Source of the DNA: a virus
Strand: one strand, 5' to 3'
Length of the DNA: 26,166 nt
Virus record (IMG/VR): IMGVR_UViG_3300035660_000071
Coordinates: 1-26,166 of that record
A program made the translations under genes and the position numbers. Below, one piece after another: positions 185 through 26,166 of the stretch. A model generated the notes under the pieces. The model had not been told where the DNA came from. It was given only the letters and a program-made list of their open reading frames with translations, and made no database searches. Every line of letters starts with the position of its first letter. The stretch's first letter is position 1.

Positions 185-457
185 ATGAGCGCAAAGATCG
201 AACTCAACATCCCGAAAGGCATTGGCAGGGACAGAGTCATCTCGAATCTAGTGCAAGAGATCCGACTCGCCACTCAGATCAGAGACAATGAAAGGTGCCT
301 GTCCGTAGTTCTTGGCATCTGTCGAGTCATCAATGAGTTAGAGGACATGAAGAGGTATGCAGACGGATTGAGGATCCTAGCTACTACAACCCTAGGCGGC
401 AGCACCCTTGAGGTCAAAGAATACGCCGGCACCGATTATTCCTTCAAGATAGAGTGA
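185..457 (+). CDS. Unknown 90 aa protein, first gene of the integrase operon
   Basis: This small soluble protein has no signal peptide or membrane segment. Its middle looks helical (about residues 15-65, with regularly spaced Leu/Ile and charged residues), and the C-terminus is more beta-like (TLEVKEYAGTDYSF). I do not recognise a family. The ATG at 185 follows a TATA-like box. The stop codon overlaps the integrase GTG start as GTGA, so the two are probably translationally coupled. By position it could be a recombination directionality factor or a small regulator of the integrase, but no helix-turn-helix is evident, so that is only a guess from context. Confidence 0.7.
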   Translation: MSAKIELNIPKGIGRDRVISNLVQEIRLATQIRDNERCLSVVLGICRVINELEDMKRYADGLRILATTTLGGSTLEVKEYAGTDYSFKIE

Positions 458-1638
458 GTCGCTTGGCCCGCGCCGAGCTTCCGTTCTATGCCCGTGAGTG
501 GCTCAAGACCGAGGAGAGTGTGCGCAACTGGAAGAGCGGCAGCGATGAGACCGCCCAACTCGTGCAGAAGAGCTTGGGTAAGTGGAAGAGCCGCCTCGAG
601 GGATCCACGTTCACTGTGTACTACACTTGGCTGCACCCTTTTCTCCACTCGCTTGGAAAATCTCCAGACGAGGCGATCGAATGGGCCAAGCAAACACAAG
701 ACAAGTACGAAGTCCTCGACGTGATTCAAGCGTTCGTGAACTCGCTCACAGCGAGGTACAACACGAAACGAATCGCCTATGCGACTCTGCGTTCCTTCTT
801 CAGCCACAACCGCGTCGACCTGCCAGTTGACAGGCATTTCAGGATGCGGGGTGATGAGAAGCCAACCGAACGCAACCTGACAACGGACCATGTTCGCATG
901 CTGGTCGGCCTAGCGGTTCAACCTTGGCGCAGCGCATTCCTAGTGAAGTGGCATGCGCTCCTGGACAATCAGGGCCTCGTCTACGTCTCCAACCACTATG
1001 CCGAGAGGATCGTGGAAGCATTGAAGACGAACGTTGACCTCGTCCGCGTCACCATGCCAGGCCGCAAGAAGATGAAGAATGTCCGAGACTTCGAGACCTT
1101 CATCGGCCCCGAACCGCTAGCGGCATTGAGAGACTACTTCGAGAAGGAACGCGGATGGCCCAAGCCTGGAGAACCAGTCTGGGTCTACAGCACCGAGAAC
1201 CACAAAGGCGAACCGATGAAGGTCCGAGCTCTGCAAGAAGCATGGATGCGCCTGCTGAGACGAGCCAAACTGGTTCCGGCGCAGAAGAGCGGGACCCCTG
1301 GCATCCGTTACGGCTTCAATGTCCATAACACGCGAGATCTAGTGATCTCGCACTTGACGGAGGTTCCAAGCCTCAAGGATATCGTCGTCGAGTATTGGGC
1401 CGGCCACCAGATTGACCCGCTCGGTTACAGGGACTTGGGACTCAAGCCGCAATTCGTCGAAGCACAGTACCGCCTCGCCATCCCCTACTTGAGTCTACTG
1501 ACTGCCGGTCCCCCTAGTCAAGAGGCAAAGGAACTCCGCGACAAAGTGGCGCACCTCGAGCTCGCAGTCGAGATGCTGCAAGAAGCCTCAGGTCTCAAAG
1601 TCACAAACCCAAGCGTTGGAGGTGAGAAACAGAAATGA
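454..1638 (+). CDS. int: Archaeal-type tyrosine recombinase / integrase
   Basis: This 394 aa protein would catalyse site-specific strand exchange between viral and host attachment sites. Residues about 30-125 look like the helical core-binding (SAM-like) domain. The catalytic domain follows, with HNTR at 291-294 (HxxR box), AGH at 316-318 and candidate nucleophile tyrosines at 325, 339 and 345. Of these, Tyr339 in EAQYRLAIPYL best matches the layout of archaeal integrases. The usual first Arg box is not clear, as in several archaeal relatives. The C-terminal 40 residues (EAKELRDKVAHLELAVEMLQ) form a short coiled coil. The start is a GTG overlapping the upstream stop, and the end overlaps the next gene as ATGA. 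The family is fairly sure; the attachment site was not found. Confidence 0.87.
   Translation: MSRLARAELPFYAREWLKTEESVRNWKSGSDETAQLVQKSLGKWKSRLEGSTFTVYYTWLHPFLHSLGKSPDEAIEWAKQTQDKYEVLDVIQAFVNSLTARYNTKRIAYATLRSFFSHNRVDLPVDRHFRMRGDEKPTERNLTTDHVRMLVGLAVQPWRSAFLVKWHALLDNQGLVYVSNHYAERIVEALKTNVDLVRVTMPGRKKMKNVRDFETFIGPEPLAALRDYFEKERGWPKPGEPVWVYSTENHKGEPMKVRALQEAWMRLLRRAKLVPAQKSGTPGIRYGFNVHNTRDLVISHLTEVPSLKDIVVEYWAGHQIDPLGYRDLGLKPQFVEAQYRLAIPYLSLLTAGPPSQEAKELRDKVAHLELAVEMLQEASGLKVTNPSVGGEKQK
1332..1351. repeat. Perfect 8-bp inverted repeat inside the integrase gene
   Basis: GCGAGATC at 1332-1339 and GATCTCGC at 1344-1351 are perfect reverse complements around a 4-base loop (TAGT). The repeat lies in the codons just after the HxxR catalytic box. 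Some archaeal viral integrase genes carry their attachment site inside the gene, but there is no second copy here to support that. It may be a codon coincidence. Confidence 0.5.
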
Positions 1639-5061: not shown

Positions 5062-5589
5062 CTACGTTATGCTCAATTCGACCGTGGCGACGCGGTTGAC
5101 CGCACTCGTTTTCGTTCCCATCGCCTGCACCTTCCGATTCAAGTTGTCATGGGCGTCGTCGTCGCCGTTGACGATTGTGATTTCTTTCCAAGGAAAGTTC
5201 GCGTCGCCCGTTGGGAATGTGGCGCGGAACGTGGCTTTCTGATCTGTCCCATACGTGGGATAGGTAGGGTCCATTGGCTGACAGAACTTGTTGCCGCCCA
5301 GCAAGCCTGTCTGATCATCGTCTGCCGCAGTATCGCCATCGCCAACTTCGATGTAGGCGTTCGTATTGTCGAACTTGACACCGCCTGTTCCACAGATGAG
5401 GCTCCATATCTCATTGATGCCTTCTTTCAGGAAGCAGTTATGGTCGAACTCTTGATGGTTGACAAGGGCGCCTGTCTTTGCGTCAAAGTCTTCAATGATG
5501 TAGTGACTGTGGAGAACTCCACGATCGCGCACCTTGATACGGTCCGCTAGGTGAAGCCATCCTTTCGCTGTTCGGATGAATAGTTCCAT
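5062..5589 (-). CDS. Tail protein of the conserved 'VGDG' type, 175 aa
   Basis: The sequence follows a pattern seen in many siphovirus tail genes. A short N-terminal strand is followed by HNCFLKEGINEIWSLICG, then AYIEVGDGDTAADDDQTGL, then FRATFPTGDANFPWKEITI and a final strand pair ending TKTSAVNRVATVELSI. These are structural proteins near the baseplate or tail tip. The ATG at 5589 is preceded by GGAAGTGA about 7 bases away. A hairpin-rich 82-base gap separates it from the tail hub gene upstream, so it may be transcribed or processed separately. Confidence 0.72.
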   Translation of the reverse strand: MELFIRTAKGWLHLADRIKVRDRGVLHSHYIIEDFDAKTGALVNHQEFDHNCFLKEGINEIWSLICGTGGVKFDNTNAYIEVGDGDTAADDDQTGLLGGNKFCQPMDPTYPTYGTDQKATFRATFPTGDANFPWKEITIVNGDDDAHDNLNRKVQAMGTKTSAVNRVATVELSIT

Positions 5590-5630
5590 CTAGTTTCACT
5601 TCCTTTTTTTCAAAACCTCTCTATTTCTTC

Positions 5631-5666
5631 CGCGCCGAGAGAGGCGCGATCAACCCGCTTATGCGG
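5631..5666 (-). terminator. Tandem hairpins between tail hub and distal tail genes
   Basis: CGCGCC (5631-5636) and GGCGCG (5643-5648) form a perfect 6-bp stem with a GAGAGA loop. Just beside it CCGC/GCGG (about 5655-5666) can form a 4-bp stem. On the minus strand the first is followed by a purine-rich tract rather than a clean T run. It is therefore a candidate attenuator or RNA processing site rather than a standard terminator. Confidence 0.4.
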
Positions 5667-5671
5667 AGTGA

Positions 5672-7762
5672 CTAGACACTCACGTCTTTCGTCATGCGCC
5701 GATATTCCGCATCTAGGTCCCAGAACTCCTTGGGACGGTTCGACAGGTCCATGATGACGACGCGTGGCTGCATCATATCTCGCTCAATGCGTTTGATCGT
5801 GTAGGTGCCTGATAGACCGATTGTGGGGGATGTGATTGTGACCTGATCCTCAGTTGCGAACGTCCCGACGTCATAGTTATCCACCGCCTCCACCCTGATT
5901 ATCTCGTCAGTGGTTTTGCTCAAGTCCAAGAGGGCCTGACACATCGTGTCTAGCGTTGCTTGGTCTGAGATTGTTGCCTGGAAGGCTGGCGCCTGATGGA
6001 GCCCCTGAACTGCGATGGCGGCGCCGTCCTGCTTCGTGCTCGTGATCCCGTCGCCCTTCATTCTAATCCAGTTTGCGAGCGAGTAGTCGTCTTCTGACCA
6101 GTTGGCGTCAAGAATCGCGGCGGCACCACCTTCCTCGAAACTAACTGGGACGATGCCGCCTGTGAAGGTTTCAGCAAAATCGAGCGTTCGATTCAAGGTC
6201 ACGCGGAAGTTCCAGTTGACCGCGCTGCATATTCTTTGAATTGCGTCATACAGGGATTCCGTGTCTATCGTGATTATGAGCGATGCGGCACAGGTGCCTA
6301 GACTACCCACGGAGATCCCGCATGGGTACTTGGTCAGCAGATCATTGATGATGTACTGGGGTGTCTGGCCGGGGCTGGCGTACAGCTCAAGCTCCACACA
6401 CCTGTCAAGTAGAATGGATATGTCTGCGCCGCGTAGAATGACTCTTGGCGCGTCACTCAGGGAGCGTTCTCTGCCTTTCAGGACACCCGCGAAGTCTTTG
6501 ACGCCGCGACGATAGATGCTGACTAGCCCGCCACGTGTGATCGTGCTCACATATTCGGGGATTTCGATCTCGAAAGTCTCACGTTTCCCCTGCTCGTTCC
6601 AGGCATAAATGCCTTGGACGAAAGCATACTCGATACCTTGGAGGAAGAACTGGTATTCTTTGCCGGTGTCGCCTACTTCCGCCTCATAGAAAATGTGGAC
6701 GACGCAGTAGTCTGAACAGGCGGGAACGGTTGCGTCGCCAAGCCATGCAGCCTTCACTATCGCGACTCCATGAGAGGTCCCGGTTAGAGCTGACTCCGCG
6801 TTACCATTTGCGTCGGTCGTGTCTGAGGCGGGAGTCATGGTGCCGAGAACCGTTGTGAATTGGATTGACGCGCCGGGATAGTTCAAGCCGCCCGTTGTTT
6901 TGAGGTTCGCGGTCAAATTCGCGGTCTTGGGTGTTCCTATTGCTGCGTTTCGATGGATGATCACGACATCGCTTGTGAGTTGGAGTGTGCCTGTGCCGGG
7001 ATCCCATTCCCAGGCGTCGCCGCCGCACATCTCGTAACTTGTCGTCGTTTCAATCAGAGTCGTGCCATCGGTGCCGTAGACCTTCAGATACATCTGCTCA
7101 GGGAAGTCCTCTGCAGTGACATTCAGAGCAACGGAACTGGCAGGTGCGGCTGTACAAGTTTGCGTATCAATCAAAGTGTCGTCGCTAGAGCGGTAGATCT
7201 TGATCTTCTGGCCGGGAGTCAAGCCTGTGATGGTGACGGTTGCGCCTTTCGCGATGACGAGGTGGTCAACGTAGGTGTAGGGAGCCGCAATCGTGTTGTC
7301 AGAAAGATACCCCGCGACAACGTACTGACTACCCGTGACGGCAGTCGGAATCGTGAAGCTTTCCATCTGCCAGGCGTGAGTCCCAGTTTCAATAGTGGAG
7401 TGGCAATTAGTGACAGGATTCCAAGAGTAGTATCCGTCAGCGAACATGATACCGTAGGAATTGCGAAACAAAGCGCCGCCTGTGATCTTATGCCAAACCC
7501 GCGCGACCCTGCCTGCGCCAGTGCCGACATCGAGCGGCTTCCTGAATCCCATAGCTGCGTACTTGTTAGGCATGTAGTAGCTGGATGGCCAAGTACCTCG
7601 AAGGGAAGCTGCCCCGCTGTGCTTGTCGCCCGTGTCAACGATGTATGAGCCGAATCCGTCTCCGTAGGGGAATTCGGTTAGGTGGCTCCTGAACCACCAC
7701 CCGCCTATCGCGTCAAATTCGTCAAAGACGATGAGGCCTTGAGTTGTGCGTGAGATCGGCAT
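5672..7762 (-). CDS. Tail hub / tail-associated protein with lectin-like and Ig-like domains
   Basis: This 696 aa protein has several parts. Residues about 1-175 look like a beta-sandwich carbohydrate-binding module (SGAASLRGTWPSSYY, YVVAGYLSDN, YTYVDHLVIAKG). Residues about 175-240 form a small strand-rich linker domain. Residues about 262-360 are a bacterial Ig-like domain (LTANLKTTGGLNYPGASIQF, then DANGNAESALTGTSHGVA). Residues about 375-690 resemble the gp27 / late-control-D type baseplate hub: VSIYRRGVKDFAGVLKGRERS, then YDAIQRICSAVNWNFRV, then LSGTYTIKRIERDM. It lies directly after the tape measure gene, the standard place for the distal tail hub. Putting the lectin and Ig modules in front of the hub is somewhat unusual and suggests receptor contact at the tail tip. 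Confidence 0.75.
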   Translation of the reverse strand: MPISRTTQGLIVFDEFDAIGGWWFRSHLTEFPYGDGFGSYIVDTGDKHSGAASLRGTWPSSYYMPNKYAAMGFRKPLDVGTGAGRVARVWHKITGGALFRNSYGIMFADGYYSWNPVTNCHSTIETGTHAWQMESFTIPTAVTGSQYVVAGYLSDNTIAAPYTYVDHLVIAKGATVTITGLTPGQKIKIYRSSDDTLIDTQTCTAAPASSVALNVTAEDFPEQMYLKVYGTDGTTLIETTTSYEMCGGDAWEWDPGTGTLQLTSDVVIIHRNAAIGTPKTANLTANLKTTGGLNYPGASIQFTTVLGTMTPASDTTDANGNAESALTGTSHGVAIVKAAWLGDATVPACSDYCVVHIFYEAEVGDTGKEYQFFLQGIEYAFVQGIYAWNEQGKRETFEIEIPEYVSTITRGGLVSIYRRGVKDFAGVLKGRERSLSDAPRVILRGADISILLDRCVELELYASPGQTPQYIINDLLTKYPCGISVGSLGTCAASLIITIDTESLYDAIQRICSAVNWNFRVTLNRTLDFAETFTGGIVPVSFEEGGAAAILDANWSEDDYSLANWIRMKGDGITSTKQDGAAIAVQGLHQAPAFQATISDQATLDTMCQALLDLSKTTDEIIRVEAVDNYDVGTFATEDQVTITSPTIGLSGTYTIKRIERDMMQPRVVIMDLSNRPKEFWDLDAEYRRMTKDVSV

Positions 7763-13775: not shown

Positions 13776-14339
13776 TCACTCTCTGACGCCCACGACAGCT
13801 CGTCTAGTGCCACTCAGAACCTCTTGTCTTTCAAGAATGTGGACTAGATCGCCATATCTGCTTTCGATTTCTTCAAAGGTTCTGAACAGGCGCACGTGAC
13901 CCTTTCCTCCGAAGTTCGGCAAGCACAAGGCCACCTTTGTTCCCTTCGATAGCGCCTGCAAGATCTCTCGATCGTTGACGAGATGTTCAAATGCCGTACA
14001 GAGGAAGAGGTCGAATCTCCGAAAGTCTATGCCTGCGTATTCTTCGTCGATGTCTATCCTTGTCACCGTGATCTTCGGGAGATCCGCGAGAGACTCCGAC
14101 ATTCTTTCGACCGCGAAGTTCACGAAGTCCGACAGAGCGTATTCTTCTATGCTTGGGATGGATTCGACCATCATCCTCGCCAAATTGCCTTCTGCTCCAC
14201 ATGGTTCGAACACCCTCTTTGGAGCGTGAGGCTTGAGGATTGAAACCATCATCTGGTCTTTCTTGACATAGGCGCCTCTGCTGTATCTGCCCCATTCTCT
14301 AGTCATGATGTCCTCGTACCAGGCTTGCGGTTGCTTCAC
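13776..14339 (-). CDS. Class I SAM-dependent methyltransferase, 187 aa
   Basis: The chosen start is the GTG at 14339, which overlaps the stop of the glycosyltransferase gene as GTGA. A longer start at 14393 would add 18 residues in overlap. The fold signs are VFEPCGAEGNLARMM (motif I, SAM-binding loop), YALSDF at the end of strand 2 (acidic residue), FDLFLCTAFEHLVND (motif IV region) and KVALCLPNFGGKG. The N-terminal TREWGRYSRGAYVKKDQ resembles small methyltransferases found with glycosyltransferases in polysaccharide or modification clusters. Its substrate is most likely the sugar or protein handled by the neighbouring transferases; DNA is less likely because no NPPY-type motif is seen. Confidence 0.78.
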   Translation of the reverse strand: MKQPQAWYEDIMTREWGRYSRGAYVKKDQMMVSILKPHAPKRVFEPCGAEGNLARMMVESIPSIEEYALSDFVNFAVERMSESLADLPKITVTRIDIDEEYAGIDFRRFDLFLCTAFEHLVNDREILQALSKGTKVALCLPNFGGKGHVRLFRTFEEIESRYGDLVHILERQEVLSGTRRAVVGVRE

Positions 14340-15040
14340 AGTGGAGATCCCCTGTTGCGTCGATACGCATTGCCTTCCTGATATCTCACCCAAGTCTGAC
14401 CGCGTTTATTGTTCACCAGTCTGAAGTCGAGCATGTAGCAGTCCGACCCTTCGAGTGATTGAAGTGTGCTCACTTGCCGCCCCGTCTTTGTGTCACACAC
14501 TAGAGAGTGATGCTGCTCGTAACGGAGGGATCCAGTGTTCTTGAACACGCGCACCATGTATCCGAAGACTCGGGCAGTCTTTAGAGTTGGCCAAGATGCT
14601 TCGGGAATCAGAGAGCCAGAGCCCTTCCATTCTGGAACGAGGCTTTCACAGAGGACGGCTGCGGAGGGTAGGCCGAGTCGCCTGATCTTATTGAATCCAG
14701 ATTCTACGTCGCCGTGTACGGTCTCGTCGGAGTCGGTCACGAATGCATAGTCGCCCTGCGGGACGGCCTTGAGGTATTCGGTTCTCGCTTCTGCTTGACT
14801 GCTCCATCCGCCGGGGGGTGCTTGGATTATCGTGCATTTGTTAGGACGCAGCAGACTGCCAATCGCTCTGAGGGTTCCGTCTGTTGATCGTGCTTCGCAA
14901 CTGGCGCGAGGGAATCCGGGGAACGCTCCGTCCACAATCACGAACCCGTCAACGTATGGGGTCAGGCTTCGGATGTTGCGGATTAGAGGTCGAACATCGT
15001 TGTATGTGACGGTGCAGGAATAGAACTTGGGGGTTGTCAA
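14336..15040 (-). CDS. GT2-like glycosyltransferase, 234 aa
   Basis: This GT-A type enzyme would transfer a nucleotide-activated sugar. It opens with FYSCTVTYNDVRPLIRNIRS (nucleotide-binding strand and helix), then VDGFVIVDGAFPG. GDYAFVTDSDETV contains the DxD-like TDSDE that binds the metal and sugar nucleotide. A late MVRVFKNTGSLRYEQHHSLV strand is typical of the acceptor half. The start is TTG, overlapping the upstream gene as TTGA, and the end overlaps the methyltransferase start. The likely substrate is a virion or host-surface protein or glycan; the exact acceptor cannot be told. Confidence 0.8.
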   Translation of the reverse strand: MTTPKFYSCTVTYNDVRPLIRNIRSLTPYVDGFVIVDGAFPGFPRASCEARSTDGTLRAIGSLLRPNKCTIIQAPPGGWSSQAEARTEYLKAVPQGDYAFVTDSDETVHGDVESGFNKIRRLGLPSAAVLCESLVPEWKGSGSLIPEASWPTLKTARVFGYMVRVFKNTGSLRYEQHHSLVCDTKTGRQVSTLQSLEGSDCYMLDFRLVNNKRGQTWVRYQEGNAYRRNRGSPL

Positions 15041-15924
15041 TGCGTCTTCGCTTTCTTGAAGACTACTCGAGTCGGCTTTTTGCCAACGAACAGTTTTCCG
15101 TGATGTGTGCCGTAGTGTCTCATTCCGACTCGGAAGTCAACGAATTGTGTGATCCCGTTTTGAGCACAGTCGTAGGCGAAGGCGAGGTCCTGCATCAGAC
15201 CGCCCTGGCCATCGTCCCAACTTCTAAACGGAATCTTGCGGTAGACGTCCATGCTGACTAAGCCGCAGGCCATCCCCTGAAACCAAACAGGATAGATGCC
15301 CGGGTGATTCTGCGTCCATTCCGTAGTGACGAAGGTGTAGCTTTTGCGCCGGATCTGTCGCGTGTCTACAGGATCAAGAGTGATGTTGACCTGCTTGTGA
15401 GGCTTGTCGTCTACGCAGCAGCCGCAGACCATTCCGTGGCTGTCCTGGCGATCAAAGAGGCAGATGTTACAGAATCCTGCAACGACAGGCAGATCGTAGA
15501 GGGTCACGTCTTCGATCAGTTGTCGGATATGCTCAGGGGTCGGGTTGATGTCGTCGCTTGAGAGCATGACATGCGTGTATCTGCTACCGTGATCTCCTAG
15601 CCAGTCGTTGATCTCGCCCGACACAACGGCCGGAGTGAAGTTGTGGAAGTAGACTCTGTCGATGAAGCCTAGTTTCCTGAAGGCTTTCTGAACTTGGGGG
15701 ATCCGTCGTACGGCCATGATCACCATAAGCGGCTTGACGGTTGCAGGAACTTCGCGTTTGAATCGCGTCAAGTCAAGCAGGACGGGCTTCAGATAGTCGA
15801 ACAATCCTGCAGGGAATGAGTCAGGCAGATCCACCAGATCCCCTGCACGATAGACTTTGCCATCATGCCTGAATCCTTTCCCAGGAACATTGTCAGTGAT
15901 TTTGAATTGAGTCAAACTAATCAC
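15037..15924 (-). CDS. GT-A type glycosyltransferase with a small N-terminal domain, 295 aa
   Basis: Residues about 7-48 form a small beta domain (FKITDNV, then GKVYRAGDLVDLPDSFPAGL) that matches the 87 aa protein encoded just upstream. Residues about 65-290 look like a GT-A glycosyltransferase: LMVIMAVRRIPQVQKAF, then YTHVMLSSDDINPT (DD in the metal-binding position), VVAGFCNICLF, WFQGMACGLVSMDVYR and QDLAFAYDCAQNGITQFVD. A CGCC cluster after MV is odd. The start is GTG at 15924 with no good Shine-Dalgarno. It is followed by the second transferase with a TTGA overlap, so the two probably act together. Confidence 0.75.
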   Translation of the reverse strand: MISLTQFKITDNVPGKGFRHDGKVYRAGDLVDLPDSFPAGLFDYLKPVLLDLTRFKREVPATVKPLMVIMAVRRIPQVQKAFRKLGFIDRVYFHNFTPAVVSGEINDWLGDHGSRYTHVMLSSDDINPTPEHIRQLIEDVTLYDLPVVAGFCNICLFDRQDSHGMVCGCCVDDKPHKQVNITLDPVDTRQIRRKSYTFVTTEWTQNHPGIYPVWFQGMACGLVSMDVYRKIPFRSWDDGQGGLMQDLAFAYDCAQNGITQFVDFRVGMRHYGTHHGKLFVGKKPTRVVFKKAKTH

Positions 15925-21671: not shown

Positions 21672-23027
21672 TCAATATCCCCAAACTGCTTCAGGTCGTG
21701 ATCCGACTTCACTAGGCAGCCAGGGTTTCATTCCACAGAGCAAAGCGTCGACGCAGTGATCGTTGACTTTCGCTGGCTTTCCCGACTTGTCATAGTGGTA
21801 TGCCTTCATCTGTTGAACAAGCGTGAAGAAGGTCTCATCTACTGCAGGGTCGGGGATCCTGAGCAGCCCGTTCTCAAGGCGCCAGCGTACATTGCTGATC
21901 AGGGTGTCCTTGTCTTTGCTGAAGACGACAGGTGTAACCTTGAGGCCCATCTGCTCAAGATCCGCGTTATCCGCTGCTGCTTCACTGTCCGGATAGATAG
22001 GGAAGAGGCCGAAGTCGTCTCGGATCTCACGCTTGATCTCCGTGTAACTTATCCTCTGCCAAGTTCGGCAGTCGCGAACAAAGACAGTGTCGCCTTGCTT
22101 CTCAAAGAAGAGCAGGACTGCAGCGCCAACGAAGCCCCAGTCAAGCGCCGTCCACTTCTCAGTGAGCGGGTGCGCTGCCATGTCAGGATAGAGCTGAGGG
22201 TCGTTCGGATCAACGACAGCGTGCGGTACGTCCGGTTCGATTCCGTCTATGAACTCGCTGTCCCAAACCCGGCCTTTCCTCTCACCGATCTCGCCACCAT
22301 ATTCGACGCGCAATGTTTCGGAGTCAAGGACGAGTGCGGCGCGGGCTGTTTCCTCCGGGTTGATCCAACTACATTCTTCGGGTGGCCAGCCGTAACGGAC
22401 GAATCCCTTAGCCTTCGGGTTCTGCCAGACCTCAACGAACCACTCAAGACAAGGCCCAGGCGAGGCGGTACTCATGATGATGTGTTTCGGCCGTCGGCTC
22501 GTGCGCGTCGTCGGCCAAAGGGCATCTATCAGTTCGGGCTTGAAGAGAACTGCTTCGTCAGCGCACGCGATATCCACATGGCCTCCTCGAGATCTGCGCT
22601 CGCTTGCCGGCAGGATTTCCAGACTGCCACCTTGCTTGAACTCCGTCCAATACATTGTGGGTTTGCCGACAAGCCAGTCCTGGGGAAAGATGTCTGGATT
22701 CAGCACTATCGGCTTGTAGTAGGAATAGAGGTAGCGGGCCTGCCTGTACGAGCCTGATTGGACGAAGATCTTCCAGGTTGGATCGACTCGCTGGAGATAG
22801 GCGAATGCGGCTGCTCCCAGCTTGGTTTTGCCGCCCCCTCGAGGCGCCTTGATGATGATCTCACTGTATGCGGGATCCTGGGAGGTCATGGCCTGCAACC
22901 CTGGAATCTGACCAGGGCTAGGATCCATACCCATGTAGAGCCTAGCGAAGTTGCAGGGATCCGCCTTACCCAGACTGAGCTTGAGCCTCGAGTCGAGCAA
23001 TAGCTCTGGAGAGGACGGTTTGTTCAT
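21672..23027 (-). CDS. terL: Terminase large subunit (packaging ATPase/nuclease)
   Basis: This 451 aa motor pumps DNA into the prohead and cuts it. The Walker A box is APRGGGKT at 61-68, with an RGGGK variant of the deviant loop. Walker B is VDIACADE ending at Asp157-Glu158. A coupling motif follows around IIMSTASPG (184-191). The RNase H-like nuclease starts at TALDWGFVGAAVLLFFE (Asp296), with later acidic residues at RDDFGLFPIYPDSEAA and the terminal NDHCVDALLC. The frame begins 62 bases inside the small-subunit gene. Length and all motifs are complete. Confidence 0.94.
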   Translation of the reverse strand: MNKPSSPELLLDSRLKLSLGKADPCNFARLYMGMDPSPGQIPGLQAMTSQDPAYSEIIIKAPRGGGKTKLGAAAFAYLQRVDPTWKIFVQSGSYRQARYLYSYYKPIVLNPDIFPQDWLVGKPTMYWTEFKQGGSLEILPASERRSRGGHVDIACADEAVLFKPELIDALWPTTRTSRRPKHIIMSTASPGPCLEWFVEVWQNPKAKGFVRYGWPPEECSWINPEETARAALVLDSETLRVEYGGEIGERKGRVWDSEFIDGIEPDVPHAVVDPNDPQLYPDMAAHPLTEKWTALDWGFVGAAVLLFFEKQGDTVFVRDCRTWQRISYTEIKREIRDDFGLFPIYPDSEAAADNADLEQMGLKVTPVVFSKDKDTLISNVRWRLENGLLRIPDPAVDETFFTLVQQMKAYHYDKSGKPAKVNDHCVDALLCGMKPWLPSEVGSRPEAVWGY

Positions 23028-23442
23028 CAGGAGTCAGCTTCTCAACTAGCTTGTCGAAGTTCACTGTGATCTGAGGACCCGCCACTTGCACATTCTGCGT
23101 GACGCCAGGGTGCGGTATCAGGATCTGGAGTTGGTTGCGGATGATCCCGTTGAGGGCTTGAATGTCATGGTGGCCGAGCTGTCTCGAGAAGACCATATTC
23201 GCGAGTGTATGGTTGAACTGCTTGATCTCATGCACGGTCTCCATGCTGTACTTGACGGTGAGGGGTTCAGCCGCCCGCTGCATCGCTTTGATCTGAACCG
23301 CAAGGTAGGCTTGCCGCAGCGCTTGGGTGCGGGAATTACCCTCCTCCCCCCCTACTGGGTCTTTTCGCTTCGGTTTTTTGGAGGGATCTGCCTCAAGAGA
23401 CGGGGCCTTGGCCGTTTTGGTCTTCTTAGGCTTCTTGGGCAA
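22966..23442 (-). CDS. Probable terminase small subunit, 158 aa
   Basis: This is called mainly from position, directly upstream of and overlapping the large subunit. The first 30 residues are Lys/Pro-rich and probably disordered. The middle is helical (RTQALRQAYLAVQIKAMQ, then VHEIKQFNHTLANMVFSRQL). A beta element (VQVAGPQITVNF) precedes a terminal helix (EQTVLSRAIARLEAQ). A clear helix-turn-helix is not evident, so DNA recognition is not proven. The start is TTG at 23442, inside the end of the methyltransferase gene, with GGAG about 10 bases upstream. Confidence 0.65.
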   Translation of the reverse strand: MPKKPKKTKTAKAPSLEADPSKKPKRKDPVGGEEGNSRTQALRQAYLAVQIKAMQRAAEPLTVKYSMETVHEIKQFNHTLANMVFSRQLGHHDIQALNGIIRNQLQILIPHPGVTQNVQVAGPQITVNFDKLVEKLTPDEQTVLSRAIARLEAQAQSG

Positions 23443-24709
23443 CCTGTTGCATCTCCTGGGGCAGCGGATAGTTGCTTACGATGAGGTTACGGTAGGTCCC
23501 GCGTTCGCCGCCTATGACCTGCTCAATGCAGAGGCTTGAGTCCAGGGCGCCTTTGAGTTGGTCAGCGTAGAGGCTGCGGATTTCTGGGTGGTCGCCCACA
23601 GTCATGAGCCACTTGCCCTTTGCCTTTGACAAGAGCTCTGCGAGTGCCTTATGGTCATCAAGGGTGAATTTGCCGACGCGGTACTGCTCCGTGTCAAGGT
23701 AAGGCGGATCCAGAAACATGAATGTGCTTGGGGCGTCACGGTTCTCTATCAAACGGCGAAAGTCTAGGTGATCAATTTCCACACGCAGGAGGCGCTCATG
23801 GATTGTTCGAATCTCTGTGAGGGCGTTCTGCAGTACGAGGGCGCCGCTTCTAGGCTCAGCTCGAGAGAAAGCCCATCCCTTGCCCGCTTGTCCGCCGAAG
23901 CTGCATCTGAGCACGTACCAGAACCTGAAAGCGCGTTCCACGGGATCCTGAGCGGGTGGACTGCCGCCTGTGGCTTCCCTCTGCCACTGTTCGAATAGTT
24001 CTCGGCTGTAGAGGAGATATTTCGAGTGCTCAAGGAAGACATCAGGGTCGTCGCGGATGACTTCGAAGAGGTTGACGAGCTCACCGTCTAGATCGTTGTA
24101 GACTTCGATTTGGCTTCGCGGCTTGTTGAGCAGGACGGAGGCGCCGCCGCCGAACACCTCCACATATGACATGTGTTCAGGCATCATGGAGATGAGGCGC
24201 GAGGCAAGTTTCTGTTTCCCACCCAAGTACGGGACCAGGCAGAGGCCTTGCGTCTTACCGCTTGGTTCCATGGCGCCGAGGTTAGGTATGTCCACGTCGG
24301 CGATGATCTTGTCAATCTCAGCTTCGTCGAACCCGGTCAGGGTGGCTTCAGGCAGATCCTTCAGCTCAGCGAGAATCGACGCAAGCTTCTCGTCGTCCCA
24401 GTCGCCATGTATCTTGTTCAGGGCAATGTTGAGTGCTTTCGTTTGGCGGTCTGAGAGATGCTCTCTATACACGACGGGGACTCTTGCGAAGCCTAGTTCT
24501 AGGAGATCTTCGAGACGCTGATGGCCACCGATCACGAGGTTATCTCGTCTGCGCACAATCAGAGGATCCACGATACCGAACTCACGGAGGCTCTTCTTCA
24601 GCTTTTCATGTTCCTCTTTAGACATGACGCGTGGGTTGCCCTTCCAAGGCTTCAGGGAGTGCGGGTCCACGTACTCAATCTTCAAGCGATGCGTTGGCTT
24701 TGGAGTCAT
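23426..24709 (-). CDS. ParB-like domain fused to a D12-class adenine DNA methyltransferase
   Basis: In this 427 aa protein, residues 8-100 are a ParB/Srx-type domain: NPRVMSKEEHEKLKKSLREF, GIVDPLIVR, and GGHQRLEDLLELG, a match to the GxHRR box. Residues 158-425 are a D12/Dam-like N6-adenine methyltransferase: VPYLGGKQKLASRLI (SAM-binding), YVEVFGGGASVLLNK, then the catalytic FLDPPYLDTEQY (DPPY 334-337), and GKWLMTVGDHPEI. It probably methylates viral DNA to resist host restriction or to mark packaging sites. The recognition sequence cannot be read from sequence. It ends overlapping the small terminase gene. Confidence 0.9.
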   Translation of the reverse strand: MTPKPTHRLKIEYVDPHSLKPWKGNPRVMSKEEHEKLKKSLREFGIVDPLIVRRRDNLVIGGHQRLEDLLELGFARVPVVYREHLSDRQTKALNIALNKIHGDWDDEKLASILAELKDLPEATLTGFDEAEIDKIIADVDIPNLGAMEPSGKTQGLCLVPYLGGKQKLASRLISMMPEHMSYVEVFGGGASVLLNKPRSQIEVYNDLDGELVNLFEVIRDDPDVFLEHSKYLLYSRELFEQWQREATGGSPPAQDPVERAFRFWYVLRCSFGGQAGKGWAFSRAEPRSGALVLQNALTEIRTIHERLLRVEIDHLDFRRLIENRDAPSTFMFLDPPYLDTEQYRVGKFTLDDHKALAELLSKAKGKWLMTVGDHPEIRSLYADQLKGALDSSLCIEQVIGGERGTYRNLIVSNYPLPQEMQQVAQEA

Positions 24710-24716
24710 TGTTTCT

Positions 24717-24809
24717 TCATCCGTACTGTTCGCGTTCTCGTCTACGCTTCGCCCGTTCCCGCGCTAGAAGCTCAGGAGTTCGACGCTGATGCCAAAACCG
24801 CGTCTTCAT
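24717..24809 (-). CDS. 30 aa highly basic protein
   Basis: The frame starts at an ATG (24807-24809) overlapping the stop of the anchored surface protein as ATGA, and ends 7 bases before the methyltransferase ATG. The product is MKTRFWHQRRTPELLARERA then KRRREREQYG, an Arg/Lys-rich amphipathic helix that could bind nucleic acid. No family is recognised. Its tight fit and coupling make it plausible, but such a short frame can arise by chance. Confidence 0.45.
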   Translation of the reverse strand: MKTRFWHQRRTPELLARERAKRRREREQYG

Positions 24810-25366
24810 TTCTTGATCCGCTTTGCGATTGCAAGTACTACCACGGCGACGCAGAATCCCGTAACGAAGCTCATGAACGCAAAGGCGGGCCACAGATTCG
24901 GGGGCTCACTCGCTGACTCCGTCAAGGTAGATGAGGTAGACTCCGTCTGGCTCGCCAGGGAAGACGTCGTGTTCGTTCCGGTTGTCGTGGTCTGTGTTTC
25001 AGTTTGCATGACCACCATGAAGGAGGTCTCCGCGATCTGGTGGTCCCAAGTCACCGCGACCGAATAGTTGCCGACCATCGCGTCTTGCGGAAGGTCCACA
25101 AGAATGGCGCCTCCGTTGATGGGCAACTCTCTGAAGTACAGGTTATGGAGATTCGGCTTGTCGACGTAGAGCCAGAGCGAAAGGGTGTCATTCGTGAGCC
25201 CTGTCGCAGCAACGGTGATCTGCACCTGGTCGCCTGGATGGTAGGTCGCGCGGTCAGTCGTGACCGTGACTTGCGGGCCTGCCTGCGCGAGCACAAGCAT
25301 CAGAATCAAGAAGAGCGGATGCGTGATGCTATCACACTTCCTGACGTGGTGTGATCTCGACGGCAC
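24806..25366 (-). CDS. Secreted, membrane-anchored beta-sandwich protein, 186 aa
   Basis: The annotated start is a GTG at 25366. A signal-like hydrophobic run (HPLFLILMLVLAQAG, about residues 16-30) is followed by one MG2/Ig-like beta domain (residues about 31-120: VTVTTDRATYHPGDQVQITV, then AMVGNYSVAVTW). A Thr/Ser-rich stalk (about 121-153, likely O-glycosylated) and a transmembrane helix (about 160-180) come next, then KRIKK. This is the layout of an archaeal surface protein. It overlaps the two-helix protein upstream and lies two genes from the subtilase, so it may belong to an egress or surface-remodelling set. Confidence 0.78.
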   Translation of the reverse strand: MPSRSHHVRKCDSITHPLFLILMLVLAQAGPQVTVTTDRATYHPGDQVQITVAATGLTNDTLSLWLYVDKPNLHNLYFRELPINGGAILVDLPQDAMVGNYSVAVTWDHQIAETSFMVVMQTETQTTTTGTNTTSSLASQTESTSSTLTESASEPPNLWPAFAFMSFVTGFCVAVVVLAIAKRIKK

Positions 25367-25685
25367 GTTGAATTACAAGCCCAATCGACAGGTACGCAAG
25401 GACTGCAAAGAGCCCTGCGAGAAGCATAGCAACCGCAAGGATGATCGCCATGAGACGTGGGATCGGTAGAGACGCGACTCCCGCCAAGTTTAGACTCCAC
25501 AGTTCGGACGTCAGAACAAAGTATGTCCCGCCGACAATGTTCATGATGAACGATATGAGAAACCGCTTCTCCGCTCGCTCCAAATTCTTCAGCGAAGCGA
25601 AACGGTCATGCGGAGCTGACGCAATCTGTGGAAGCAACAACTGCCGATGCTTGAGCATGTGCTCAACTAGAGCTCTTCGATTCAT
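25332..25685 (-). CDS. Two-helix membrane protein, 117 aa
   Basis: The N-terminal 37 residues are basic and helical (HMLKHRQLLLPQI, ASLKNLERAEKRF). Two hydrophobic segments lie at about 42-58 (FLISFIMNIVGGTYFVL) and 78-106 (LMAIILAVAMLLAGLFAVLAYLSIGLVI), joined by a short loop. Holins often have this size and topology, but no sequence signature confirms it. It overlaps the end of the subtilase gene by 23 bases and the start of the anchored protein, so the three are probably made together. Confidence 0.75.
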   Translation of the reverse strand: MNRRALVEHMLKHRQLLLPQIASAPHDRFASLKNLERAEKRFLISFIMNIVGGTYFVLTSELWSLNLAGVASLPIPRLMAIILAVAMLLAGLFAVLAYLSIGLVIQRAVEITPRQEV

Positions 25686-26166
25686 CTTTCAACCACCCAT
25701 ACGCTTTGTAACCGTTCAAGCGTCCGGCCCCAGTAGTCCAGCGCGGGTCAGTTCGCGACGAGAACGCCGCTTTCAATTTCTGAGCGACACGTTTCCGGAG
25801 AGGCGCACCTTCAGCCAACGCCGGCAGAAGACTCGCCTTCGCAGGATCGCAAGACTCCATGAGCGCCTGTTTGAGAACGGCGCCGGTTGCTTGCGGAAAG
25901 GCCTGCTTCAAGAGCGTGAGAACGCCTGTCACGTGAGGCGTTGCGAAGCTCGTACATTCATAGGAGACATACATCCCGCGTCTCAAGGGCAACGGTGCAG
26001 CCGCAGTTATCCGAGCGCCTGGCGCGACCAGATCAGGTTTGATTCGACCGTCCAGTGTCGGCCCACGTGCGCTGTCCCAAATGACGTAATCGTGTTCGTT
26101 CGATTTCCCGACTGTGACCGCGAGCTCCGCAGCCCCTGGAGTTCCTACGGTCTGATACCTGGGGCC
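25663..26166 (-). CDS. Subtilisin-like serine protease (S8), C-terminal part, cut by window edge
   Basis: The frame is open from the right edge to its stop at 25663, so the N-terminus, including any signal peptide, Asp and His active sites, is outside the window. What is seen is the last part of the S8 fold: TVGTPGAAELAVTVG, then GRIKPDLVAPGARITAA, then ECTSFATPHVTGVLTLLKQ, with the catalytic Ser encoded at 25948-25950. The usual Gly before Thr-Ser is Cys here. Terminal GAGRLNGYKAYGWL matches the subtilase end strand. Only this C-terminal segment is supported. It could be a virion entry protease, an egress protease for an S-layer, or a host-derived gene at the edge of the virus. Confidence 0.85.
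   Translation of the reverse strand, partial: GPRYQTVGTPGAAELAVTVGKSNEHDYVIWDSARGPTLDGRIKPDLVAPGARITAAAPLPLRRGMYVSYECTSFATPHVTGVLTLLKQAFPQATGAVLKQALMESCDPAKASLLPALAEGAPLRKRVAQKLKAAFSSRTDPRWTTGAGRLNGYKAYGWLKDESKSSS

Follow-up and report, generated by a model that had tools for sequence, protein, structure and literature searches.

In the holin-endolysin cassettes of tailed phages, overlapping genes encode a small membrane protein and an envelope-cutting enzyme without a signal peptide; canonical endolysins carry no such signal and exit by way of the holin. A protein S-layer is the sole wall of most archaea, and the release of tailed viruses from such cells represents a long-standing gap. The pseudomurein endoisopeptidases PeiW and PeiP of Methanothermobacter viruses lyse the host by cutting its wall, with no holin identified in that system (PMC4456609). 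Virus-associated pyramids, built by PVAP of SIRV2 or C92 of STIV, provide release through the S-layer by means of one small aperture-forming protein and no protease. In the release model for the Methanosarcina spherical virus (MetSV), the protease proposed to help break the S-layer archaeon is a host-encoded cysteine proteinase, MM_RS01165, implicated by transcript levels (PMC9694453). A 2015 review proposed that a holin acting together with proteolytic enzymes might serve in S-layer archaea, noting that isolated archaeal viruses had no identified holin gene and that enzymes degrading the S-layer were not known (PMC4456609). In a 2025 survey, lysis proteins were recorded in 10.9% of 129 archaeal dsDNA viruses (PMC12596118). 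A serine protease of a thaumarchaeal provirus is named in a figure legend, which gives it no lysis role (PMC6563490).

Here, we describe three overlapping genes at the right end of a 26,166-bp linear virus record, referred to below as the window. We propose, with a probability of about 0.52, that an archaeal head-tailed virus uses them late in infection as a host-lysis cassette, consisting of a holin, an S-layer protease, and a helper or restrainer with an MG2 domain. The resemblance to phage holin-endolysin cassettes lies in the overlapping genes for a small membrane protein and an enzyme, the latter signal-less in related viruses; the differences are that the enzyme is a protease rather than a peptidoglycan hydrolase, that an anchored MG2 protein is added, and that the holin is putative. 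Compared to PeiW/PeiP, the enzyme is a subtilase and its target would not be pseudomurein, whereas in contrast to the MetSV model, the protease is encoded by the virus and linked to a holin-like gene. The sequence-only reading had called this a lysis system distinct from those known, and the literature searched, which leaves out most subscription papers, describes no protease-holin cassette encoded by a virus; the general idea, however, dates from the 2015 review. With named genes, two related genomes, and an apparent protease swap, the lysis idea becomes testable by simple expression.

Gene content of the right end of the window

Most of the minus strand of the window is occupied by a head-tailed structural module encoding the large terminase subunit (TerL), portal, a DUF2213 protein, scaffold, cement, an HK97-type head protein, tail completion, tape measure, and tail proteins with Ig and lectin domains. 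At the right end, genes follow in the transcription order subtilase (cut by the record end), 117-aa two-helix protein, 186-aa anchored protein, ParB-methyltransferase, a protein in the position of the small terminase subunit (TerS), and TerL. The first three genes, all on the minus strand, lie upstream of the packaging genes and overlap one another, as the sequence-only reading had described; the overlap is 23 bp between protease and two-helix protein and 35 bp between two-helix and anchored protein. Downstream, the ParB-methyltransferase (23426–24709, minus strand; PF02195 and PF02086), a fusion of a ParB N-terminal domain with a D12 DNA adenine methyltransferase, adjoins the terminase genes. 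The TerS-position protein (22966–23442, minus strand) was assigned by its position and had no noteworthy family match in Pfam or PHROGs. It is followed by TerL (21672–23027, minus strand; phrog_2, E = 1.5e-23), which is 57% identical to homologs on two other contigs (L002 and L003). The window proteins that were scanned include no recognisable classical lysis enzyme.

The subtilase gene (25663–26166, minus strand) encodes the C-terminal 167 aa of a peptidase of the S8 family. The match to PF00082 (E = 4.9e-20; 72.4 bits versus a cut-off of 21.8) covers profile positions 162–273 of 288, and the serine motif, CTSFATPHVTG, is intact, of the GTSxATPH type, and aligned to the corresponding motif region of an archaeal subtilisin-like protease (PDB 3afg, E = 2.1e-19). 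About two thirds of the catalytic domain are absent from the record, so that the catalytic Asp and His, the Asn of the oxyanion hole, and the N-terminus all fall beyond its end. This protein is our candidate for an S-layer-cutting "endolysin."

The 117-aa protein (25332–25685, minus strand) has hydrophobic helices at residues 42–60 and 78–96, as judged from hydropathy. The tape-measure protein aside, no other protein of the window has a pair of hydrophobic segments, unless these are of the signal peptide plus anchor type. Like the small membrane proteins of one to four helices encoded beside the enzyme in holin-endolysin cassettes, it adjoins the protease gene, and the overlap is kept in the relative described below. 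Holins carry no sequence signature, and small two-helix proteins are common; the protein had no PHROG match and only a weak Pfam match to ActD (E = 0.05), and its homolog in the relative likewise had no match in PHROGs. We consider it a putative, class II-like holin.

The 186-aa protein (24806–25366, minus strand) comprises a signal-peptide-like N-terminus, an MG2 domain, a Thr/Ser-rich linker, and a single C-terminal helix that would anchor it in the membrane. The sequence match to PF01835 (MG2; E = 5.5e-5) falls under the curated cut-off. An AlphaFold model built from two sequences is mostly confident and predicts a seven-strand beta-sandwich (residues 30–124) between the signal helix and the C-terminal helix. 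Its nearest solved folds, ranked first by VIA-align (Z 13.6, rmsd 1.6 over 90 residues), are MG2 domains of alpha-2-macroglobulin and complement proteins. The likeness is to the fold of the ectodomain: the modelled protein is a single domain with neither a bait region, a thioester domain, nor multiple MG domains, and is not an alpha-2-macroglobulin. Trapping a protease requires the whole inhibitor and is beyond a lone MG2 domain; the pairing of an inhibitor-family domain with a neighbouring protease gene is suggestive and no more.

Two further parts of the window deserve mention. Within the head-tail region, methyltransferase-like, glycosyltransferase-like, and 295-aa unknown genes are inserted (13776–15924); glycosylation of the virion or of the host surface is a possible role. 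Beside the integrase and on the opposite strand, a gene at 1635–2396 encodes an anchored surface protein with an FxLYD domain that ends in IPETPWP, a helix, and RRKR, and is possibly expressed in lysogeny.

Corresponding regions of two related viruses

The sequence-only reading had proposed looking for the same three-gene order in related viral contigs, and this order was found on an independent 35.7-kb virus contig (L027) retrieved by a subtilase profile search. There, the subtilase is followed by the two-helix homolog (26-bp overlap), one extra membrane gene, the anchored homolog, a methyltransferase, and the terminase. The methyltransferase, called D12-like by its similarity to that of the window, has no evident ParB part. 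Identity to the window proteins is 57% for the protease, about 39–43% for the two-helix protein (6428–6784; E = 1e-14), and 45% for the anchored protein (E = 2e-21), with alignment scores of 385, 187, and 185, respectively, against shuffle maxima of 52–56. Identities at the first, second, and third codon positions are 64/72/28% for the protease, 50/69/40% for the two-helix gene, and 57/64/29% for the anchored-protein gene; divergence is thus concentrated at third positions, strongly so in the genes for the protease and the anchored protein and less so in the two-helix gene, which indicates purifying selection on all three. Judged by this conservation, the trio is more than a chance grouping.

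The tail genes of L027 are shared with the window, as assessed by eye, whereas its terminase, portal, and capsid genes differ, so that the cassette has been kept while head and terminase genes changed. In L027, it lies mid-contig, between small genes and the terminase, portal, and tail genes, which supports its being viral; the sequence-only reading had named a location in host DNA beyond the virus boundary as an argument against its proposal. The anchored homolog of L027 has a signal peptide, and its C-terminus, VPEF followed by a hydrophobic helix and RKR, resembles the PEF/PEFG-CTERM surface anchors of archaea.

The L027 protease is split between a pro-domain-like ORF (5256–5663), which had no Pfam match and was likened to a pro-domain by eye only, and a catalytic ORF (5554–6453) in a different, overlapping frame. 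The break could be a sequencing or assembly error, a programmed frameshift, a separately encoded pro-peptide, or gene decay. The His, Asn, and Ser motifs are present, whereas the catalytic Asp position is occupied by Gly (IIGTGID instead of the usual DTG motif). The L027 enzyme may thus have lost its activity or be decaying, unless the assembly is at fault. No signal peptide is found at the start of the protease region. The sequence-only reading had counted the lack of such a signal against a lysis role, yet canonical endolysins lack it as well; a signal-less protease with a pro-domain-like ORF, encoded together with a signal-bearing MG2 protein, fits holin-dependent release.

Another contig, L003, contains the closest packaging genes, with identities to the window of 57% for TerL, 67% for the portal, 60% for the ParB-methyltransferase, and 44% for the TerS-position protein, and the order ParB-methyltransferase, TerS, TerL is the same. 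On its 29.6 kb, possibly a fragment, subtilase, two-helix homolog, and MG2 homolog are absent together. Approximately 3.6 kb upstream of the ParB-methyltransferase, L003 encodes a 435-aa protein whose gene overlaps by 4 bp that of a 72-aa hydrophobic protein. When compared with a C1 profile of 16 sequences (phage cysteine proteases and papain), the 435-aa protein reaches an hhalign probability of 96.4% (E = 1.1e-9) and 41.6 bits, whereas none of 2000 shuffles exceeded 9.3 bits, and the papain-like catalytic residues Q107, C113, H267, and N294 are all aligned. Searches of Pfam, including PF00112, and of PDB sequences gave no match, and an AlphaFold model computed without homologs has a pLDDT of 36, so the C1 assignment rests on the profile comparison. 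No signal peptide was predicted for the C1 protease. Of the two hydrophobic segments in its 72-aa partner, one is strong and the other weaker, and the several other small membrane genes nearby show no convincing similarity to the two-helix protein of the window.

On sequence grounds, the C1 protease looks like a non-homologous replacement of the subtilase. In the corresponding region, upstream of the packaging genes, L003 has a protease of another class that overlaps a small hydrophobic protein. Relatives either keep the trio or swap the protease, a pattern pointing to a protease as the means by which these viruses open protein-walled cells, in place of the peptidoglycan enzyme of bacterial viruses.

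At the far end of the L003 contig (L007, 17379–19254), a 313-aa protease-like gene lies with a gene for a protein with a signal peptide and a C-terminal helix; this stretch may be host DNA or the edge of the virus. In close portal relatives, a large terminase-like gene unlike those of the window and L003 was observed (L005, 1313–2803; L006, 376–1827), and the terminase appears to be exchanged there beside a conserved portal. Single-sequence searches with TerL, the two-helix protein, and the protease of the window returned either L002 only or nothing.

A candidate lysis mechanism and its alternatives

Under the proposed mechanism, the subtilase would be a cytoplasmic product bearing a pro-domain and no signal peptide, and the two-helix protein would build up in the cell membrane and open it at a set time, in the manner of a class II holin. 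The freed protease would then cut the protein S-layer, causing the cell to burst. The MG2 protein, exported to the outer face, would probably aid or restrain the protease by binding the protease, the S-layer, or both. The earlier assignment of the protease as S-layer lysin and of the two-helix protein as holin draws support from the conservation of the cassette under selection, from the lack of a recognised classical lysis enzyme, and from the C1 parallel in L003, and is retained as a function that we infer; the part of helper or surface blocker given there to the anchored protein is a candidate role. A more general form of the proposal, which we advance tentatively and hold at somewhat under even odds, is that tailed viruses of S-layer archaea possess a protease-type holin-endolysin system, in which the enzyme class is exchangeable (subtilase or papain-like), position and holin-like partner are kept, and the anchored MG2 protein acts as an external protease regulator or a spanin-like helper.

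An archaeal host is likely. The divergent tyrosine integrase of the window (454–1638) had a sole match among 50,697 phage records, in Geoglobus ahangari pleomorphic virus 1 (E = 3e-10), a different type of virus, and the surface anchors look archaeal. The head protein matches viruses of Brevundimonas and Halorubrum alike. No cellular relative or provirus was detected when cellular genomes were scanned with TerL and portal profiles; the earlier attribution to an archaeal virus is thus indirectly favoured by the integrase and by the PEF-type anchor of L027, but no host link emerged through a provirus.

Among the alternatives, the one that survives best, although unlikely, is surface modification or superinfection exclusion, whereby the MG2 and membrane proteins would alter the host surface and the protease would process viral or host surface proteins with no lysis involved. 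The 186-aa product is clearly a surface protein, and the second anchored one, encoded beside the integrase, implies that surface-active lysogenic functions may exist. Nevertheless, the cassette is located away from the integrase, adjoining the packaging genes and sharing a strand with the structural genes, and the proteases of L027, L003, and the Methanofastidiosa virus vir520 are all signal-less, so that the surface would be out of their reach without a hole in the membrane.

Barely less plausible is a role in virion maturation or as a cytoplasmic auxiliary protease, with the subtilase processing capsid or scaffold, or degrading host or defence proteins, next to unrelated membrane genes. Subtilases do occur in bacterial phages: among the 52 records found at E <= 1e-8 are many large Bacillus phages, with one product annotated as "intracellular serine protease," and vir520 has a signal-less one; a lysis role of the bacterial-phage enzymes is not established. 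The window, however, has its own scaffold gene and a DUF2213 protein at the usual maturation position beside the capsid genes, and L027, despite different head genes, has kept the close overlap between protease and two-helix genes.

It is rather improbable that the S8 domain is a pseudoprotease, serving with the MG2 protein as a sensor or regulator without catalysis. Clostridial Csp pseudoproteases are S8 folds reused in this way, and the Asp-to-Gly change and frame break of L027 point in the same direction, but the window has an undamaged serine motif, L027 retains Ser, His, and Asn, and all motifs are present in vir520 and in another virus contig (L029). Least probable by a further step is an entry enzyme, as also entertained in the sequence-only reading: a virion-borne protease could, on general grounds, cut the S-layer from outside for DNA injection, but the genes lie outside the tail module and the co-encoded membrane proteins would hardly be expected in the virion of a tailed virus.

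Proteases of other viruses

The association of proteases with holins, which underlies the proposed lysis cassette, is not peculiar to the window: in actinophage lysis cassettes, papain-like C1 proteases of the same C1 group as the L003 enzyme overlap or abut holin genes, as in Gordonia phages Aleemily, GMA2, and Lilbeanie and Arthrobacter phage Mufasa8 (L014, 1584–2261; L020, 1492–2160; L026, 1489–2151; L021, 1989–2633). Most of these carry no annotation beyond cysteine protease or peptidase, and cysteine proteases are unmentioned in a 2022 paper on Gordonia lysis cassettes. These cassettes also have annotated peptidoglycan enzymes, of which none was recognised in the window, and the protease of the window is a subtilase.

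Two other candidates were set aside. The subtilase of vir520 (L009, 12242–13453), located ~4 kb upstream of TerL, was considered as a second example of the cassette and rejected, as no membrane gene is adjacent to it. For the gp33-gp34 genes of HFTV1, which others have proposed to form a lysis transcript, the annotation gives two small hypothetical proteins of 110 and 52 aa rather than proteases. Finally, on L029, a third virus contig (4674–6753), the subtilase gene comes directly after genes for a 128-aa membrane protein and a portal-like protein, and the same contig encodes a viral-type DNA polymerase of family B (L034).
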